A stretch of 64,000 bases of DNA, taken from NCBI RefSeq assembly GCF_000230715.2, contig NC_019792.1:3720001-3784000 (forward strand). Direction: 5' to 3'. The notes beneath the pieces were generated by a model that saw only the letters and a program-made list of their open reading frames with translations, ran no database searches and was not told the DNA's origin. This document shows, one piece after another, positions 4,581 through 52,158 of this stretch (its first letter is position 1; each line of letters starts with the position of its first letter). Position numbers and translations under genes: made by a program. This DNA comes from Natronobacterium gregoryi SP2. GTDB taxonomy: Archaea > Halobacteriota > Halobacteria > Halobacteriales > Natrialbaceae.

Positions 4581-4988
4581 ATGCCTGGCGACGACGGGAG
4601 CGAGACGGAAGGCGACGGCGGCGGCCGTGAGTACGACGACGACCGGGTCGCACTCGGCCTCGCTCTGCTCGAACGACTCGAACACGAGTCACTTCCGCTT
4701 CCAGCCGTCGTCGATCGGATCGAAACCGTCACGGCAGATCCAACAGTCACTCGAACGATCCTCGACGAGGCCGAACTCCGTGGGATTATCGACCGTGAAG
4801 ACGGTATCGTTCGCCCGAAGAGCCGCCAGTACGTGCGGTTCGGTAGTGAGGTGATCACCAAGGAAGGCGAGTTCACTTGCAAGCGTTGTGGGTCGGAACT
4901 GTCGACCGGTCACTTCGTCGACCTCGAAGCGGGCGAACTCGGACCCTTTGGCTCGTCGTGTATCCGGAAGGTGACGGGAAGAGAGTGA
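4581..4988 (+). CDS. Conserved haloarchaeal winged-helix/zinc protein (135 aa)
   Basis: Has an acidic N-terminal leader, then a helical region resembling a winged helix (LALLERLEHESLPLPAVVDR, then RTILDEAELRGIIDRE), then FTCKRCG and a lone C-terminal SSCIRK cysteine that could complete a metal site. It resembles an uncharacterised haloarchaeal DUF family (possibly DUF5830, from memory). It may be a DNA- or RNA-binding regulator. Its TGA stop (4986-4988) directly abuts the left end of a family B palindrome, and the next gene is convergent. Confidence 0.65.
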   Translation: MPGDDGSETEGDGGGREYDDDRVALGLALLERLEHESLPLPAVVDRIETVTADPTVTRTILDEAELRGIIDREDGIVRPKSRQYVRFGSEVITKEGEFTCKRCGSELSTGHFVDLEAGELGPFGSSCIRKVTGRE

Positions 4989-5071
4989 GACGGTTTGCTG
5001 TACGTTATTTCCGGTGCAACCACGTCGCTTTGGGTCGTGATCGGGCTGAGAAACCGTTACAACGATCCGTC
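4989..5071. repeat. Family B palindromic repeat, copy 1 (degenerate right arm)
   Basis: Left arm GACGGTTTGCTGTACG, then TTTCCGGTGCAACCACG, matches the other copies. The right arm ends ACCGTTACAACGATCCGTC but its inner part has decayed. It sits between two convergent genes, immediately after the TGA of the left gene. Confidence 0.75.
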
Positions 5072-5094
5072 AAAGTCGAACGCTTGCGACCGGA

Positions 5095-7341: not shown

Positions 7342-8193
7342 ATGGGAGACTCCGTCATCGCGGACTTTACCGGCCGGGTCGTTACGCCCCGAATGGGGGG
7401 CAACAAGCCGGTTCGCTGTCGAGTGCTCCTCACCCACGACCGGCTCGTCGCGGTCTCGAGCAACGAGAAGGTCGCGATTCCGGCCGATCGGATCGTCCAC
7501 GTGTCGATGAACTCGATTTCGGGGAAGCTCGAACGGTTCTTCTCGAACACGATCACTATCAAGTACAGGACGAAAAAGGGCGGTCGATCGCTCCACATCG
7601 AAAAAGAGGGAGCGATGGCCGAGAAGTTCCGGCTGCTGTTGACGAACCTGTTGCTTCGCGGGACGACGGTCGTGCTGTACCATCCAGCGAGACGCAGTGG
7701 CCGGATGCTCGAGCCGTCACCGCGGCGAGCCAAGATTTCAGCGAAACGCGGCAAAGCGGTGTTTTCCACGAAGAAAGGGTCGCTCTCGATCGACCTGTCT
7801 TCGGTCGTCCATCTCCGGTACGAGACCGAGGAGACGTTTCGGACCAGCTACCCGTCCGTCGAGTGGACCTACCGGAACGGGACACGGCCGACGACGACGA
7901 TCGTTGCTGCCCCCGACACTCGGAAGCTACAGCTTCTCGGGCAGTACCTCCAGAGCGACTACCGTGACACTCGCGGGAAAGCGGAAAAGCTCGCGCTCTC
8001 GACGGCCGAAGAGAACGCGCTCAGCGCCATCCAGGTCGGACTCGAGCCCGATTCTATCCCGAACGTGCTTCCGGAAGAAGCACCGTCGACAGCCGACGTG
8101 ATCGAGACACTGGGCGAGAAAGGACTCGTCGAACGCGGCAAGGGTGGGTTTCGGACGACGATTCTGGGGGAAATTACGCTCCGCGCTCGCTAG
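7342..8193 (+). CDS. cheF: CheF-family taxis protein (283 aa)
   Basis: Begins MGDSVIADFTGRVVTP, the typical CheF opening. CheF proteins bind CheY and the archaellum switch in haloarchaea. The protein has two beta-rich halves (a PH-like fold is likely) and a C-terminal winged helix (ALSAIQVGLEPDSIPNVL... then TADVIETLGEKGLVERGKGG). The family is DUF439/CheF and this is the usual length. It is an orphan copy, with no che or arl genes in the window. A promoter-like AT stretch (GACTTAACACTTAATTG) lies at about 7296-7312. Its TAG stop is part of the CTAG that begins the family A array. Confidence 0.82.
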   Translation: MGDSVIADFTGRVVTPRMGGNKPVRCRVLLTHDRLVAVSSNEKVAIPADRIVHVSMNSISGKLERFFSNTITIKYRTKKGGRSLHIEKEGAMAEKFRLLLTNLLLRGTTVVLYHPARRSGRMLEPSPRRAKISAKRGKAVFSTKKGSLSIDLSSVVHLRYETEETFRTSYPSVEWTYRNGTRPTTTIVAAPDTRKLQLLGQYLQSDYRDTRGKAEKLALSTAEENALSAIQVGLEPDSIPNVLPEEAPSTADVIETLGEKGLVERGKGGFRTTILGEITLRAR

Positions 8194-8277
8194 TACCGTC
8201 CCAACCGTCGACTGACGGGTCGAATCGAGCGACACCGCCAGATTCGACCCATCAGTTCAGGCTTGGCCCGCCACTAG
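8190..8277. repeat. Family A CTAG-bounded palindromic module 1 (88 bp)
   Basis: Runs from the CTAG containing the cheF stop codon to the next CTAG. Head is CTAGTACCGTCCCAACCGTC, tail GGCTTGGCCCGCCACTAG. The internal stem GGGTCGAATC (8217-8226) pairs perfectly with GATTCGACCC (8241-8250) and extends outward with CTGA/TCAG across one mismatch. Confidence 0.8.
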
Positions 8278-8361
8278 TACTCCGCCAAGCGTGGACTGCT
8301 GAGTGAACCCAGACGACTGCATTCGGTTTCACTCATCCGTTCAGGCTTGCCAAAGCACTAG
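8274..8361. repeat. Family A module 2 (88 bp)
   Basis: Shares its first CTAG with module 1. Head is CTAGTACTCCGCCAAGCGTG, tail GGCTTGCCAAAGCACTAG; the internal stem GAGTGAA/TTCACTC differs from module 1. It is almost identical to the 88-bp copy at 50301-50388. Confidence 0.85.
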
Positions 8362-21871: not shown

Positions 21872-23263
21872 ATGGAACACGTCGACGTTGCGGTCGTCGG
21901 TGGCGGTCCAGCGGGTGCCTCTGCAGCCGAGCGAGCGGCATCCCACGGTGCCAAAACGGTGCTGTTCGAACAAGGCGTCCCACGAGAAGACCGCGAGGAT
22001 GTCGGCCCCGACTCGACCGACGCCGCCGGCATGCTCGACTACTGGATCGACATCATGGGCTTTGACTACGAGGAAATCCCCAACGAGGTGATCCACCAGG
22101 AACTCAACGGAGCCGAGTTCGTCGGCCCGTCGACGACAGTCGAGCTGACAACGACCGGGATCGACGCCACCTATCCGAAGTTCGGCTACACCTTCCACCG
22201 CGCTCGCATGGACGACTGGCTCCACGAGCGCGCGGCCGAGGCAGGTGCCGATCTCCGAGTCGGAACCGGCGTCTCGGACCTCGAGACCGACCTCCGGGCC
22301 GACAGTCCTGCCGGCCCAACCCACACGCTAACGCTCTCGAACGGCGACCAGATCGAAGCCCAGTACGTCGTCCTCGCGGACGGCCCCCAGCGACGCGTCA
22401 CGCTCGAGGCTCTCGACCAATTTACGCCGCCGGGCCGAAGCGTCTCCGACCACCTCTCACCACCGGAAGCCAACCACATCGCTTATCAGGAGTATCGAGA
22501 GTTCCCTCCCGAACTGTTCACGGAGTTCGAAGACCAACTCACGTTCTGGTGGGGCCACATGCCCGGCAAAACCGCGTACCCGTGGGTCTTCCCCAACGAC
22601 GGCACGGTCGCCCGCGTCGGCCTGACCATGCCCATCGGCATGACCCTCGAGGACATCGAAGACCCTGCATCCTACAAGCTCCTCCGCCCCGAAGACGACC
22701 AACTTCCATCCGGCTCCGAATACGTCAGCCGACTACTCGAACTCGAATACGGCGACGAGTACGACATCGAGGAAGACATCCCGGTCGTCGAGGACCGCGG
22801 CAAGTCCAGAGGAACCGAGACCTACCCGATTTCCTCCACGCAACCGATCGACTCCCCCGTCGGTGCAAACATCGCCGTCGCTGGCGGCGCGATGGGAACC
22901 ACCTCCGCGTTCCACGAGGGCGGCTACCACGTCGCCGTCCGCTCGGGCAAAATCGCCGGCCGACTCGCCGCGACCGACTCACTCGAGAACTACAACGACC
23001 TCTGGAAACAAGCCATCGGCAGCGAACTCCTCCGGAACGTCTCTTTCGCCGACATCGTCGAGGGCTACGGCCCCGACGACTGGGACTGGGCCTTCAGCGT
23101 CGTCAACGACATGCAAGGCAACGGCGACGACAACGTCTTGATCTCGAAAAAATACTCGGCTGGCATCGACGCGACCAAAGTCCTCGCACAGTACAAAAAG
23201 CGCAAGTTCACCTACCGAAACGGCCGGTACGTCCAATTCCCGGAAGACGACTACGTCTACTGA
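21872..23263 (+). CDS. Geranylgeranyl-reductase-type FAD-dependent oxidoreductase (463 aa)
   Basis: Start chosen at MEHVDVAVVGGGPAGASAAE (ATG at 21872), which places the FAD loop GGGPAGASA at the N-terminus. Later motifs are VLADGPQRRVTLEAL and ANIAVAGGAMGTTSAFHEGG, the second FAD contact in this family. Members saturate isoprenoid chains of archaeal lipids or quinones, so a membrane-lipid role is likely but not proven. A TATA-like TTTAATATGG lies 22-31 bases before the start, so the transcript is probably leaderless. Its TGA stop is shared with the left end of a family B palindrome. Confidence 0.85.
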   Translation: MEHVDVAVVGGGPAGASAAERAASHGAKTVLFEQGVPREDREDVGPDSTDAAGMLDYWIDIMGFDYEEIPNEVIHQELNGAEFVGPSTTVELTTTGIDATYPKFGYTFHRARMDDWLHERAAEAGADLRVGTGVSDLETDLRADSPAGPTHTLTLSNGDQIEAQYVVLADGPQRRVTLEALDQFTPPGRSVSDHLSPPEANHIAYQEYREFPPELFTEFEDQLTFWWGHMPGKTAYPWVFPNDGTVARVGLTMPIGMTLEDIEDPASYKLLRPEDDQLPSGSEYVSRLLELEYGDEYDIEEDIPVVEDRGKSRGTETYPISSTQPIDSPVGANIAVAGGAMGTTSAFHEGGYHVAVRSGKIAGRLAATDSLENYNDLWKQAIGSELLRNVSFADIVEGYGPDDWDWAFSVVNDMQGNGDDNVLISKKYSAGIDATKVLAQYKKRKFTYRNGRYVQFPEDDYVY

Positions 23264-23344
23264 TACGGTTTGCTGTAAGTCATTTCCGGCGCGACCGCAG
23301 GAGGGTTCGCGGTCGCGCCGGTAAATCGTTACAGCATTCCGTAT
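23263..23344. repeat. Family B palindromic repeat, copy 2 (82 bp, near-complete)
   Basis: ATACGGTTTGCTGTAAG...TTTCCGGCGCGACCGC faces GCGGTCGCGCCGGTA...TTACAGCATTCCGTAT, about 35 bp per arm. Its first base is the last base of the stop codon TGA of the flavoprotein gene. Confidence 0.9.
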
Positions 23345-23346
23345 GA

Positions 23347-24020: not shown

Positions 24021-24038
24021 TAAATGAACGAAGTATGA

Positions 24039-24160
24039 GTGGGGCGGCGAATCGACGTTCCCAGAGGGTCTCCCACTCCAGTAGTTGCCGATACGCGGGC
24101 GGGCTTATCTTCCGTGTTCGGGATGGGTACGGGAGGAACCCCGCCGCTCTGGCCGCCTAA
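24039..24160 (-). rRNA. rrf: 5S ribosomal RNA
   Basis: On the minus strand the gene starts TTAGGCGGCCAGAGCGG and contains CCCGTACCCATCCCGAACAC and GGAAGATAAGCCCGCC, matching haloarchaeal 5S rRNA. The 5' TTAGGCGGC pairs with the 3' GCCGCC. Length is about 122 nt; ends are set by this pairing. Confidence 0.93.
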
Positions 24161-24279
24161 CGCCGACTCGCGGAATCGAACCGCGACCATACCAAGGTCG
24201 GTCAGGCGAAACCGTCTGTACGTGTAGTCCAGTTTGCGTCTGGACCCGTTCCCGGGTCACAGATCCAATGCGATAAGTT

Positions 24280-27197
<2,918 letters not shown>

Positions 27198-36238: not shown

Positions 36239-36667
36239 ATGGCGCTGGTCGTGGTTCCCGTTCGGTACCCGTTGACGAACCGGTCCCGCAAGACGCTCGA
36301 GCGGGCGATCGAGGTCGCCGAGGAGCGGGACGCGGCGTTGACGGTTTTACACGTCGATCTCTACCAGAACGGGAAGAAAGTGACGCGAATAGATCTGAAA
36401 GACGCCGTCGAGCGGACTGCCGGGCCGATCGAAAACGCTAGATACGTGGTTCGGACCGGGTTTCTGGTCGAGGAGAGCATTCTTGACGAAGTGGCGGCGG
36501 AGGGCGCAGACACCGTCGTGATCGGAGACCGGAGTGCCAGTCGGTTCCGACGCGTGTTCCGTCGTCTCACGAACAATCCGGATATCAACGATTTCCTCCG
36601 GGAGCACCTCGAGTGTGAGGTGATTACCGTCGAGGCGGGGACGTCCTCGCGCCGTAGTAACGGCTGA
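36239..36667 (+). CDS. Universal stress protein family (142 aa)
   Basis: UspA-like alpha/beta fold. Begins MALVVVPVRYPLTNRSRKTL, with the Asp of the usual ATP-binding start replaced (VPVRYP). The C-terminal loop is VVIGDRSASRFRRVFR, a weak form of the GxxGxxxxxxxxGS nucleotide motif, so ATP binding is doubtful. Its TGA (36665-36667) abuts a family B palindrome whose other end gives the stop of the next, convergent Usp gene. Confidence 0.8.
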   Translation: MALVVVPVRYPLTNRSRKTLERAIEVAEERDAALTVLHVDLYQNGKKVTRIDLKDAVERTAGPIENARYVVRTGFLVEESILDEVAAEGADTVVIGDRSASRFRRVFRRLTNNPDINDFLREHLECEVITVEAGTSSRRSNG

Positions 36668-36741
36668 GACGGTTTGCTGTCAGTCAGTTCTGGCGCGAGC
36701 ACGCCTGCGGTCGCGCCGGGACATCGGCACAGCAGTCCGTA
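36668..36741. repeat. Family B palindromic repeat, copy 3, filling the gap between two convergent genes
   Basis: GACGGTTTGCTGTCAGTCAG at the left and CACAGCAGTCCGTA at the right, with arms CTGGCGCGAGCACG and CGGTCGCGCCGG inside. It is bounded exactly by TGA on the left and TCA on the right, which are the two stop codons. Confidence 0.9.
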
Positions 36742-37182
36742 TCAGTGACTAGTATCGGCGTCTCGGACGACGAAGACGGGGATAGAGGCGTTATCGACGA
36801 CCCGTTCTGATACACTCCCGAGTGAGGTGACCTTTTCGCGTGGGCTCTTGCCGCGCGTGCCGATGACGATCAGGTCGATTCCGTGCTCGTCGGCGTAATC
36901 GAGGATCGTCTTCGCGGGCGTCCCCTCCCGAACTTCGCCGGTCGTTTCGAGTGTTGCCGCCGACGCTCGATCCTCGACTTCGGCGATCGCCTCACGTCCG
37001 TCTTTCTCGAGCGTCTCCGTGAGGTCTGTGGCGTTGTCGGCAGCCGCGGCAGTGATGCGGGTGTCGACGACGTACAGCGAGTGGACTGTCGCGTCGTTGT
37101 CGGCTGCGATCGGGAGCGCGTGTTCGAGTGTTTCCAGCACGGTGTCGCTTCCGTCCGTCGGAACGAGCACGTCGTCGTACAT
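36742..37182 (-). CDS. Universal stress protein (146 aa)
   Basis: Start chosen at MYDDVLVPTDGSDTVLETLE (ATG at 37182). It has the classical VPTDGS start and the full ATP-binding loop VIGTRGKSPREKVTSLGSVS, ending with SIPVFVVRDAD. It is therefore likely an ATP-binding Usp, unlike its convergent neighbour. Its TGA stop is the right end of the family B palindrome. Confidence 0.92.
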   Translation of the reverse strand: MYDDVLVPTDGSDTVLETLEHALPIAADNDATVHSLYVVDTRITAAAADNATDLTETLEKDGREAIAEVEDRASAATLETTGEVREGTPAKTILDYADEHGIDLIVIGTRGKSPREKVTSLGSVSERVVDNASIPVFVVRDADTSH

Positions 37183-39621: not shown

Positions 39622-39894
39622 TCGCCGCGACCGTTGTCGGTTCGTCGGGACGCCGTCGACCGCCGCCGGTAGTGACGGCCCCGTATTTCGCGGCTTCTCG
39701 ATCCGTTCCGGCCGACGACGCAGTGTTCGGCACGAGAGCCGAGATACGTCTATCTGCTGGATGACGCCTGCCCAACCCCGGTTTCGATACGGCGTGGCGA
39801 TCACGCTCGCCGACCGCCCCGTCTCAGACGGTTTGCTGTACGTGAATTCCGGCGCGACCGCGAGGATCAGACCCGCGGTGCGGAACCGCTGGGC
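39622..39894. other. Decayed 5' region of the sugar transporter operon
   Basis: No intact gene. The expected solute-binding protein gene is absent. The stretch MTPAQPRFRYGVAITLADRP (39761 on) could be the N-terminus of the permease, interrupted by a truncated family B arm before the frame resumes at 39895. Confidence 0.45.
39826..39862. repeat. Family B repeat, left arm only (copy 4)
   Basis: AGACGGTTTGCTGTACGTGA followed by ATTCCGGCGCGACCGCG matches the left arm of other copies; the right arm is missing or replaced. It lies inside the damaged permease region. Confidence 0.7.
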
Positions 39895-40101: not shown

Positions 40102-41310
40102 GTGGAATACCGTCGTACCGCCGTTATCAAGCTCGACACACCCGAAGGCGCAGATACGCACCTTCGAGAGACTGTCGAGCAATTCAAATACTGCGCCAAC
40201 ACCGCGAGTGAGTGGTGCTGGCACGGCGATGACGGCTACCACGTCACTTCGAAAGCGAAGGCCGAACGCGCCCTCTACGACCAGCTACGTGAGGACACGG
40301 AGCTGACCGCAAATCTTGTCCAGAAGGGGATTCGCCAAGCCGTCGAATCCGTCAAAAGCGGCGTCGAACGTCTCAAAAACGACCAAGATACGTCTCGTCC
40401 GACGTTCACGGCGGATACTGCCGTCTACGACAAGCGAAGCGCAACGTTCCATCGTGACCACGTTTCGCTCTCAACACCGGACGGACGGATTGAGTGCGAC
40501 TACATTCTACCTGACGATGCCGATACACCGCCGACAAAGTACGTCACAGACGAAGACTACGAGTTTCGGCGGGCGACACTCCATCGGCGTGACGGCGACT
40601 GGTATCTCCATGCGTCGATGCTCAAAGAGGACGACGACACCGAACCCACTACCGGGCACAGCACCGTCCTCGGTGTGGACCTCGGTGTGAACCAACTCGC
40701 GGTGGCTTCGACCGGACGGTTCTGGTCGGCAGACGAGTTCAACCACTGGAAGCGAGAGTACGAGAAACGGCGTAGCAACCTCCAACAGTGCGGAACGCGA
40801 GCGGCACACGACGCGATAGCAGGCGTCGAGCGCAAGGAGGACGGACGCTTCGAGATATTCCTGCATCGTGTTGCCAACGAGATCGTCGCAGAAGCAGTCG
40901 AACACGACTGTTCGCATATCGTGTTCGAGGACCTGACCGACATTCGTGAGAACGTCCCAGAAGCATCGTGGCACCATCTGTGGGCGTTCCGTCGCCTCTA
41001 CGAGTACGTCGAATACAAAGCCAGAGAGCAGGGCGTCAAAGTCGTGCAAGTGGACCCACGGAACACGTCAAAACGGTGTTCGACCTGTGGGTTTACCCAC
41101 GATGATAACCGCCACGGCGAAGACTTCGAATGTCAGGATTGTGGCTACCAGAACCACGCCGACTACAACGCTTCCAAGAACATCGGCTTGCAGTATCTCC
41201 GGCGTCGGCAAAACGCAGACGACGGAGGCGCACCCGTAGACGTGCGCTTGAATCGCGGGACACTGAACGTGAGTGGAGAGTACGATCTTCCCGCCTCATC
41301 CGAGGCGTAG
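40102..41310 (+). CDS. tnpB: RNA-guided DNA nuclease TnpB (402 aa), apparently intact
   Basis: IS200/IS605-type TnpB. TnpB proteins are RNA-guided endonucleases that use a right-end omega RNA. The start is GTG at 40102 (MEYRRTAVIKLDTPEG); an in-frame ATG is not available upstream. The RuvC residues are all present: Asp193 in GVDLGVNQ, Glu276 in VFEDLTDIREN and Asp354 in HADYNASKNIG. The zinc finger is CSTCGF and CQDCGY. A helical N-terminal domain with FKYCANTASEWCWH is typical of haloarchaeal members. Full length, no frameshift, so it may still be active although no transposase TnpA is nearby. Confidence 0.93.
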   Translation: MEYRRTAVIKLDTPEGADTHLRETVEQFKYCANTASEWCWHGDDGYHVTSKAKAERALYDQLREDTELTANLVQKGIRQAVESVKSGVERLKNDQDTSRPTFTADTAVYDKRSATFHRDHVSLSTPDGRIECDYILPDDADTPPTKYVTDEDYEFRRATLHRRDGDWYLHASMLKEDDDTEPTTGHSTVLGVDLGVNQLAVASTGRFWSADEFNHWKREYEKRRSNLQQCGTRAAHDAIAGVERKEDGRFEIFLHRVANEIVAEAVEHDCSHIVFEDLTDIRENVPEASWHHLWAFRRLYEYVEYKAREQGVKVVQVDPRNTSKRCSTCGFTHDDNRHGEDFECQDCGYQNHADYNASKNIGLQYLRRRQNADDGGAPVDVRLNRGTLNVSGEYDLPASSEA

Positions 41311-44298: not shown

Positions 44299-44390
44299 AC
44301 CGGCAGTTAGTAGAGTCGGTCAAATAAGGATACTGGCACTTCTCACTCACTACGGTCGTCGGTCGACGGCCGATGGCCGCACTCGCCGTC

Positions 44391-44470
44391 AGACGGATTG
44401 CTGTGTCGGTTTACGGTGCAACCGCGCCCCGTGTTGTGGTTGCACCGGTACATCGTTACAGCAAGCCGTA
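44391..44470. repeat. Family B palindromic repeat, copy 5
   Basis: AGACGGATTGCTGTGTCG and TTACGGTGCAACCGCG at the left face GTGGTTGCACCGGTACATCG and TTACAGCAAGCCGTA at the right. Note paired changes in the arms (GGTGCAACC with GGTTGCACC) relative to other copies. The right end runs into TCA, the bolA stop codon. Confidence 0.9.
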
Positions 44471-44716
44471 TCAGTCCTCGTCCTCCGCCGGCGTGTACGT
44501 CGACAACTCCAGTGCGTGGATGTCGGTCGTCATGTGGTCGTCGAGGGCGTCGTAGACCTGCTGGTGTTGCTGAACCAGCGAAAGCCCCTCGAACGCCGGA
44601 GAGACGACCGTCGCCGCGAGGTGGTCGTCGTCGTGTTCGTCGCGAGCGTGCGTGACCGTCGCCTCGGCGTCTTCGAGTTCCGATTCGATGCGTTCCTCGA
44701 CGTCGTTGGGATCCAT
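44471..44716 (-). CDS. bolA: BolA-family protein (81 aa)
   Basis: Start chosen at MDPNDVEERIESELEDAEAT (ATG at 44716). The conserved core is DHLAATVVSPAFEGLSLVQQ followed by HQQVYDALDDHMTTDIHALE, with the invariant histidine of BolA/IbaG. BolA proteins work with monothiol glutaredoxins in iron-sulfur metabolism. Its stop codon TGA coincides with the end of a family B palindrome. Confidence 0.9.
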   Translation of the reverse strand: MDPNDVEERIESELEDAEATVTHARDEHDDDHLAATVVSPAFEGLSLVQQHQQVYDALDDHMTTDIHALELSTYTPAEDED

Positions 44717-50300: not shown

Positions 50301-50388
50301 CTAGTACTCCGCCAAGCGTCGACTGATGAGTGAACCCAGACGACCGCATTCGGTTTCACTCATCTGTTCAGGCTTGCCAAAGCACTAG
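50301..50388. repeat. Family A CTAG-bounded module 5 (88 bp)
   Basis: CTAGTACTCCGCCAAGCGTC to GGCTTGCCAAAGCACTAG. Nearly identical to module 2 at 8274-8361. The stem GATGAGTGAA/TTCACTCATC is perfect here, repairing the mismatch in module 2. The terminal CTAG supplies the TAG stop of gar1. Confidence 0.9.
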
Positions 50389-50944: not shown

Positions 50945-51070
50945 GTCGTTCGCCGACTTGGCTGGCACCACAGCAAACAGGTCGTCGTCGGCCAACTCGA
51001 CTGATAGACGCCTACCGTCGACGTATTGGTCGCTGCTCGTCGTTCGCCACGCGATCGGCGGGAAACAGTG

Positions 51071-51100
51071 ACAGCAATCCGCCTCAGACGGTTTGCTGTC
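51071..51100. repeat. Family B end fragments (copies 6a)
   Basis: ACAGCAATCCGCCTCAG resembles a right end, and AGACGGTTTGCTGTC a left end, placed back to back just before a full copy. Confidence 0.55.
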
Positions 51101-51182
51101 ATACGGTTTACTGTAAGTCAGTTCCGGCACAACCGCGACCCGGGCGGCGGTTGCGCCGGTAAATCGGTACAGTAATCCGTAT
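51101..51182. repeat. Family B palindromic repeat, copy 6 (82 bp)
   Basis: ATACGGTTTACTGTAAGTCA to TCGGTACAGTAATCCGTAT. Arms TTCCGGCACAACCGC and GCGGTTGCGCCGGTA pair with one mismatch. Length equals that of copies 2 and 8. First of two adjacent units. Confidence 0.9.
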
Positions 51183-51245
51183 CAGTCATATCCGGCGCGA
51201 CCGCGCTCCTGCGGTCGCACCGGTACATCGGTACAACATTCCGTA
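51183..51245. repeat. Family B repeat, copy 7, left end missing
   Basis: TCCGGCGCGACCGCG and CGGTCGCACCGGTACATCGG, then ACAACATTCCGTA. The right end runs into TCA, the stop codon of the TetR gene. Confidence 0.85.
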
Positions 51246-51848
51246 TCAGTCTTCGAAAAGTCCGTCGACGACTGTCTCGATCAGTGCGTTTCGAATTTCG
51301 GGATACGCTGGAGTTCCCTCGTGGGACGGAAACTCCTTGCACCGAGAGACGAACACGAAGGTTCGAATGAATTCGCTGACGATAGCCGGATCATCGTACT
51401 TGAACGACTCCATCTCGACCCACTGTTTGGCCCCGACGAAGACGGTGTCAAATTCGGCGGAAAGCGCTTGCTGGTTCAGCTCCGAGAGTTCCGTTTCCAG
51501 CGTTCGAATTTCGTTTTCGACGATGAGATTCCTGATTATCGGGTTCGTCTCGACTTCGTCGAACGTCTGCTGGAGGGTAATTCGAACCTGTTCGCGTGGG
51601 TCGGACACGGTCTGGATCTCCGCCTCGAGGTCGTCGGTGAACCGTTCCACCTCTCGATATAACACTTCCAGGTAGAGATGTTCTTTCGAGTCAAAGAACT
51701 GGTAGAACGTGCTCGTGCCGATACCGACTTCCTCGGTAATATCCTTGATCCGCGTCCGCTCCAGTCCGTAACGGACGAATAACTCGCATCCGCTTTCGAT
51801 CAGTGCCGTTCTGATCCGCTCTCGTTCGTCGTCACTGAACCCTTTCAT
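51246..51848 (-). CDS. TetR/AcrR-family transcriptional regulator (200 aa)
   Basis: The N-terminal HTH is LIESGCELFVRYGLERTRIK followed by DITEEVGIGTSTFYQFFDSK, typical of TetR. The C-terminal ligand domain is helical and acidic. It is divergent from, and 657 bases away from, the COG1361/RND exporter pair, which is the likely target. TATA-like CCAGTATAAATC at 51869-51880 (either strand) precedes its start. Its TGA is the end of a family B palindrome. Confidence 0.9.
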   Translation of the reverse strand: MKGFSDDERERIRTALIESGCELFVRYGLERTRIKDITEEVGIGTSTFYQFFDSKEHLYLEVLYREVERFTDDLEAEIQTVSDPREQVRITLQQTFDEVETNPIIRNLIVENEIRTLETELSELNQQALSAEFDTVFVGAKQWVEMESFKYDDPAIVSEFIRTFVFVSRCKEFPSHEGTPAYPEIRNALIETVVDGLFED

Positions 51849-51984: not shown

Positions 51985-52158
51985 CTGGTAGTCCCGTCCC
52001 ACCCGTCGACTGCTGTGGCGGCCCGGCCCATACGGTTTGCTGTCCATCAGTTCCGGCGCGACCGCGAGTCCCCCTGCAGTCGCGCCGGTACGTCGGTACA
52101 GCATTCCGTATCACACGACCGGGGTTGGCCAAGCAGTGCAGACCTGACTCGCCACTGC
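51985..52158. repeat. Family A module 6 interrupted by a family B palindrome
   Basis: Head CTGGTAGTCCCGTCCC and CGTCGACTGCTG match family A heads. Tail GTGCAGACCTGACTCGCCAC matches the tail of module 4. Removing the 82-bp family B copy between them leaves 92 bases, about the usual module length. Stem halves CTGCTGTGGC and GTTGGCCAAGCAGT flank the insertion. Confidence 0.65.
52030..52111. repeat. Family B palindromic repeat, copy 8 (82 bp), nested in a family A module
   Basis: ATACGGTTTGCTGTCCATCA to TCGGTACAGCATTCCGTAT, arms TTCCGGCGCGACCGCG and CAGTCGCGCCGGTA. Same length as copies 2 and 6. Confidence 0.9.

Follow-up and report, generated by a model that had tools for sequence, protein, structure and literature searches.

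A MITE-like palindromic element of Natronobacterium gregoryi whose duplicated 3-bp target often coincides with TGA stop codons

Insertion sequences of the IS1031-type group, within the IS5 family, generate 3-bp TNA duplications. REP/BIME palindromes, which are accompanied by RAYT transposases, are short extragenic sequences present in hundreds of copies, often just behind genes and not known to be flanked by target duplications. Haloquadratum carries SMR-A and SMR-B elements, PATEs of the IS605 type and, in H. walsbyi, MITEs (PMC3119063). No element that lands on stop codons, haloarchaeal or other, is described in the open-licence PMC papers that we searched.

The palindrome considered here, family B, separates two genes for Usp proteins (PF00582) in a window of 64,000 nucleotides taken from the 3,788,356-bp single-contig genome of N. 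gregoryi SP2 (G000). A preliminary description of this DNA reported that these genes converge on a gap made of one palindrome bounded by TGA and TCA, and we found the 74 nt between their stops to be exactly one family-B element. It also listed six stop codons on palindrome ends; all six, belonging to the two Usp genes and to the DUF5830, FAD oxidoreductase, bolA and TetR genes, do lie exactly on element ends.

Table. Family-B copies in the window and the Usp genes between which one of them lies
Feature	Positions	Strand	Remarks
Family-B copy, degenerate right end	4986..5074	.	Left TSA (4986-4988) is the stop of the DUF5830 gene (4581-4988)
Family-B copy, TGA/TGA duplication	23261..23346	.	Left TSA is the stop (23263) of the FAD oxidoreductase gene
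Usp gene (PF00582)	36239..36667	+	Stop on left end of family-B element
Left TSA, also the stop (TGA) of the + strand Usp gene	36665..36667	+	Same stop in G001, G002 and G003 orthologues
Family-B MITE-like palindrome, 74 nt, TIR GACGGTTTGCTGT / TACGGACTGCTGT, GC-rich hairpin core	36668..36741	.	Predicted long hairpin fold
Right TSA, also the stop of the - strand Usp gene (TGA, read as TCA on the + strand)	36742..36744	-	Unlike left TSA
Usp gene (PF00582)	36742..37182	-	Stop on right end of family-B element
Truncated family-B copy, left half	39824..39862	+	
Family-B copy, TCA/TCA duplication	44389..44473	.	Right TSA is the stop of bolA (44471)
Solo left terminal repeat (TCAGACGGTTTGCTG)	51084..51098	+	Directly adjoins the next copy (51099)
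Family-B copy in array, TCA/TCA duplication	51099..51184	.	
Truncated family-B copy	51185..51248	.	Right TSA (51246-51248) is the stop of the TetR gene (51246-51848)
Family-B copy, flanks CCA/TCA	52028..52113	.	Intergenic, away from stops

The window holds other repeats. Positions 51069-51248, between genes at 50995 and 51246, form a family-B array of solo ends, one full and one truncated copy. A TnpB-type gene with a Cas12f1-like TNB domain, of the IS1341 kind, lies within a 1464-bp repeat that is present in the window (40102-41310) and at L046 (10941-12404) with 99.9% identity between the two sites; just outside it, at both sites, there is a truncated family-B half (window 39824; L046 12438). 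A second palindromic family of about 88 nt, at 8190-8361 and 50301-50388, starts with CTAGTAC and ends with CACTAG, with two tandem copies having one CTAG in common; it looks like another MITE family with a 4-bp CTAG target duplication. Rfam matches in the window were limited to rRNA and tRNA. The 5S-23S part of the rRNA operon (24032-27071) is matched at 99.9% over 3040 bp by L062, at about 1.82 Mb, which therefore carries a second rRNA copy of this genome.

Family B is a non-coding element of about 80 bp with terminal inverted repeats (TIRs) KACGGWTTGCTGT of at least 13 bp. Its modal span, including the flanking trinucleotide on both sides, is 86 bp, and its internal stems are variable (for example CCGGCGCRACCGC or CCGCCGATCGCC), with a strong predicted hairpin. 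Allowing at most one mismatch, 365 and 362 half-sites were counted on the two strands of the whole genome, compared with 14 and 11 for a reversed control pattern. Identical copies sit at different sites, which suggests recent movement. A narrow exact-pattern scan of genome contigs gave no match and a wider pattern gave 120 loci. The element was found in Natrarchaeobius, Natronorubrum, Natrialba, Salinadaptatus, Natronococcus, Natronolimnohabitans, Natrinema, Halovivax and Halobiforma, and is rare or absent beyond Natrialbaceae among the relatives sampled. At L007 (352-1419), a 1068-bp insertion sequence encoding a 334-aa DDE_Tnp_1 transposase is located within a family-B element, with ACGGTTTA flanking both sides.

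The trinucleotide outside each end reads T-[G/C]-A (TSA). In this genome the two flanks are TGA/TGA in 35 cases, TCA/TCA in 23 and mixed in 6, that is, 58 concordant against 6 discordant pairs; in named species of other genera the middle base agrees 129 times and disagrees three times. In N. gregoryi the middle bases of the two sides match at a frequency of 0.83, where 0.47 would be expected; none of the other flanking positions clearly exceeds its expectation. Membership of the inverted repeat would pair TGA with TCA; the same base is seen instead, so the TSA is a target duplication. An empty site was found for the copy at L078, where an interrupted IS630-type transposase sequence reads CTTCTCGTC-TCA-element-TCA-CATCTG. 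Three further copies of that sequence in the same genome read CTTCTCGTC-TCA-CATCTG, with a single TCA, and an aligned G001 copy also has a single TCA, substitutions aside. Family B duplicates its 3-bp TSA on insertion, as the middle-base concordance and this exact empty site show. Its flanks, also those of copies away from stops, give the symmetric target CGWC-TSA-GWCG. Around 5% of copies have mismatched TSAs, the Usp copy among them.

We tabulated element ends and gene ends in the window and in 60 stretches of 20 kb spread evenly over the genome (1.264 Mb, about one third of the genome, with 115 elements), using a home-made, simple codon-usage gene caller. Fifty facing gene ends lie at the offset that places the stop exactly on the TSA, and at most four at any other single offset; in 49 of the 115 copies (43%), one end falls exactly on the TGA stop of a gene. 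The proportions in other Natrialbaceae were 21/27 in G003, which like G000 was sampled by position, and 13/17 (G021), 12/26 (G016) and 77/154 (named species) in sets picked for holding elements, the last two of which overlap, since Salinadaptatus is in both. Of 1196 TGA genes, 89 have an element no more than 33 nt from the stop, against 8 of 1141 TAA/TAG genes (Fisher p = 2e-18), and TAA/TAG genes show no enrichment of nearby copies. Random intergenic placement, the null expectation proposed at the outset, is rejected: 46 copies were at stops as compared to 24.7 expected under uniform choice of non-coding TSA sites, a number reached in none of 20,000 simulations.

In a position-independent null model, occupied gaps were collapsed to their empty state and all TSA sites, non-coding or forming a TGA stop, were weighted by target context, with weights learned from copies away from stops. 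Over all gaps, 167 copies were at stops, compared with 148 expected from target weights and 92.5 from uniform TSA choice. Convergent gaps held 79 such copies for 79.3 expected and tandem gaps 88 for 68.7; in divergent gaps none is possible and none was seen. Within 80 nt of the downstream start, the zone where haloarchaeal promoters lie, tandem gaps held 15 copies for 32.4 expected. The tandem excess at stops fits an avoidance of promoter-proximal sites. Since the convergent counts match the null model and the tandem deficit adjoins gene starts, the pattern is explained by target sequence together with the elimination of harmful insertions, probably including those close to promoters.

Comparison with orthologues bears on the age of the stops. 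Seventeen gene ends abutting an element have an orthologue in G003 or G001, a set that contains the two Usp genes, bolA and the oxidoreductase and DUF5830 genes. Twelve of the 17 end at the same residue as the orthologue and 16 within one residue; among control genes without the element the figure for the same residue was 206 of 268. The DUF5830 C-terminus is identical in the element-free G001 orthologue, the FAD oxidoreductase gene has the same TGA in the element-free G003 orthologue, and the element-free bolA of G003 ends at the same codon, spelled TAG. As element-free relatives terminate the orthologous genes at the same codon, these stops predate family B and are not supplied by it. The claim in the preliminary description that the palindrome provides the stop codons is thereby contradicted, by an outcome that it had itself named as evidence against it. 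A related possibility is that the element inserts into coding sequence and creates new gene ends. On both strands a gene that runs into the element meets a TGA at its border and, if in frame, would stop there; given the conserved orthologue lengths, the lack of a stop peak inside the element and the nature of the TSA as duplicated target and not element sequence, we find truncation hardly credible. The transposase might instead have a preference for stops that goes beyond its motif, linked for instance to the termination of translation or to the 3' ends of transcripts. The overall excess over the target-weighted expectation, reached in only 1 of 5000 simulations, argues for such a property, but convergent gaps contribute nothing to it and the tandem excess is mirrored by the deficit near downstream starts, which makes this proposal very improbable. 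The earlier suggestion that the element targets stop codons holds in a precise sense: what it duplicates when inserting is a TSA, and TGA stops are among the sites of this kind.

A different role had also been proposed, namely that the host keeps the element at 3' ends as a bidirectional terminator with built-in stops, ending the transcripts of both flanking genes. The strong predicted hairpin and the over-representation in convergent gaps and at stops would suit this role, as would the scarcity of T4 tracts within 100 nt downstream of stops with a copy (4/50) compared to element-free stops (97/432) in the G000 sample, where the element could have taken over termination. However, no U-tract was found in family B: runs of T or A do not exceed 3-4, and a T4 inside the element on the gene strand occurs in just one of 50 copies at stops. 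Being without a U-tract, it is unlike a standard archaeal intrinsic terminator, whose dependence on such a tract is described for Methanococcus (PMC8716108). The lack of enrichment at TAA/TAG genes also speaks against this role, because a functional terminator should ignore the spelling of the stop codon. Furthermore, target choice leaves no excess to explain in convergent gaps, element-free orthologues retain the same stops, and 66 of the 115 copies in the 1.26-Mb sample are not at stops. We therefore consider maintenance as a terminator unlikely, although a secondary effect of family B on RNA 3' ends may occur.

The Usp copy is the sole one, among about 330 checked, with a stop at both ends. 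Its unequal TSAs (TGA on the left, TCA on the right) are not given by a single insertion, and an extra event is thus needed. In the likeliest history, given that both Usp stops are ancestral, each stop would have received its own insertion and the two copies would then have recombined, deleting the spacer; arrays of adjoining copies do exist, with 10 adjacent pairs having one common TSA. G001 and G002, genomes that lack the element, also have TGA ... TCA at the ends of the two Usp genes, separated by a short spacer. In G003, the closest relative, the same two stops enclose another palindrome, of 57 nt (AACGATTTACACACCGATCGCA...TGCGATCGGGTGTGCATTGACGT; L123, about 2319-2374), perhaps a decayed family-B copy or an independent hairpin.

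We favour the reading, with a probability of about 0.87, that family B is a DNA transposon of a non-coding, MITE-like type whose coincidence with stops results from target choice and purifying selection, and not from stop supply. A transposase acting in trans would insert the element at a TSA (TGA or TCA), preferably in the CGWC-TSA-GWCG context, with the duplication of the three bases shown above. Where codons such as GAC come before it, a TGA stop fits this target. Insertion there would leave the whole gene and its stop before the element and place a second TGA behind it; such an insertion would survive because it is harmless, gene and stop being intact, while insertions within genes or near promoters would mostly be lost. 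It is conceivable, though we regard it as doubtful, that CGWC-TSA-GWCG evolved as a target tuned to haloarchaeal gene 3' ends (an acidic codon, then TGA), the stop being a self-repairing safe site in the manner of elements that target tRNA ends. The transposition reading offers a selfish element a cheap route into a gene-dense genome, with a 3-bp target that is the stop codon and a duplication that restores it, and explains the coincidence of stops and repeat ends without new termination biology. Family-B ends should aid annotation, as insertion points and not as gene-specific terminators, and the same logic could be applied to other IS and MITE families with TNA-type targets containing TGA or TAA.

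A search for the partner transposase around PF01609 transposases (those of 25 genomes, with a repeat search in G000 and G016) and in the sampled stretches gave no autonomous element with family-B ends. Long end pairs with equal TSAs, sought in all loci, likewise gave no autonomous partner, and PF13586 gave nothing. Half-elements near several ISs were rejected as IS ends, being mere neighbours or cases of ISs adjoining elements; a 1181-bp pair in L242 was rejected as an autonomous element, as it holds an ordinary gene and its TSAs are unequal.

Among known systems, the IS1031-type members of IS5 have in common with family B a 3-bp T-N-A duplication, whereas no transposase is linked to family B and its middle base is almost always G or C. 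As in REP/BIME, there are hundreds of short extragenic palindromes, often close behind genes, but family B has a demonstrated 3-bp duplication. PATEs and IS605-type elements of Haloquadratum (PMC3119063) are also palindromic, transposase-free and present in many haloarchaeal copies; they have neither TIRs nor target duplication, and the presence of both in family B led us to reject this assignment. SMR-A and SMR-B (PMC3119063) resemble it in their size (80-110 bp), prominent inverted repeats, target preference and lack of a known related transposon. In contrast to family B, which duplicates TSA in ordinary intergenic DNA, SMRs target other mobile elements without duplication, and the TSA duplication excludes family B from them. 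Family B is short, non-coding and bounded by TIRs, duplicates a target of fixed length, is dispersed in many copies and shows signs of movement in its empty orthologous sites and in identical copies at different places, and we class it as MITE-like. With prokaryotic MITEs, including those of Haloquadratum walsbyi (PMC3119063) and the general class (PMC10969869), it has in common short non-coding sequences, TIRs, target duplication and many dispersed, mostly intergenic copies. It differs from them in that the search yielded no partner IS sharing its ends, in being GC-rich where MITEs are usually AT-rich, and in a TSA duplication that puts about half of its copies exactly on TGA stops.
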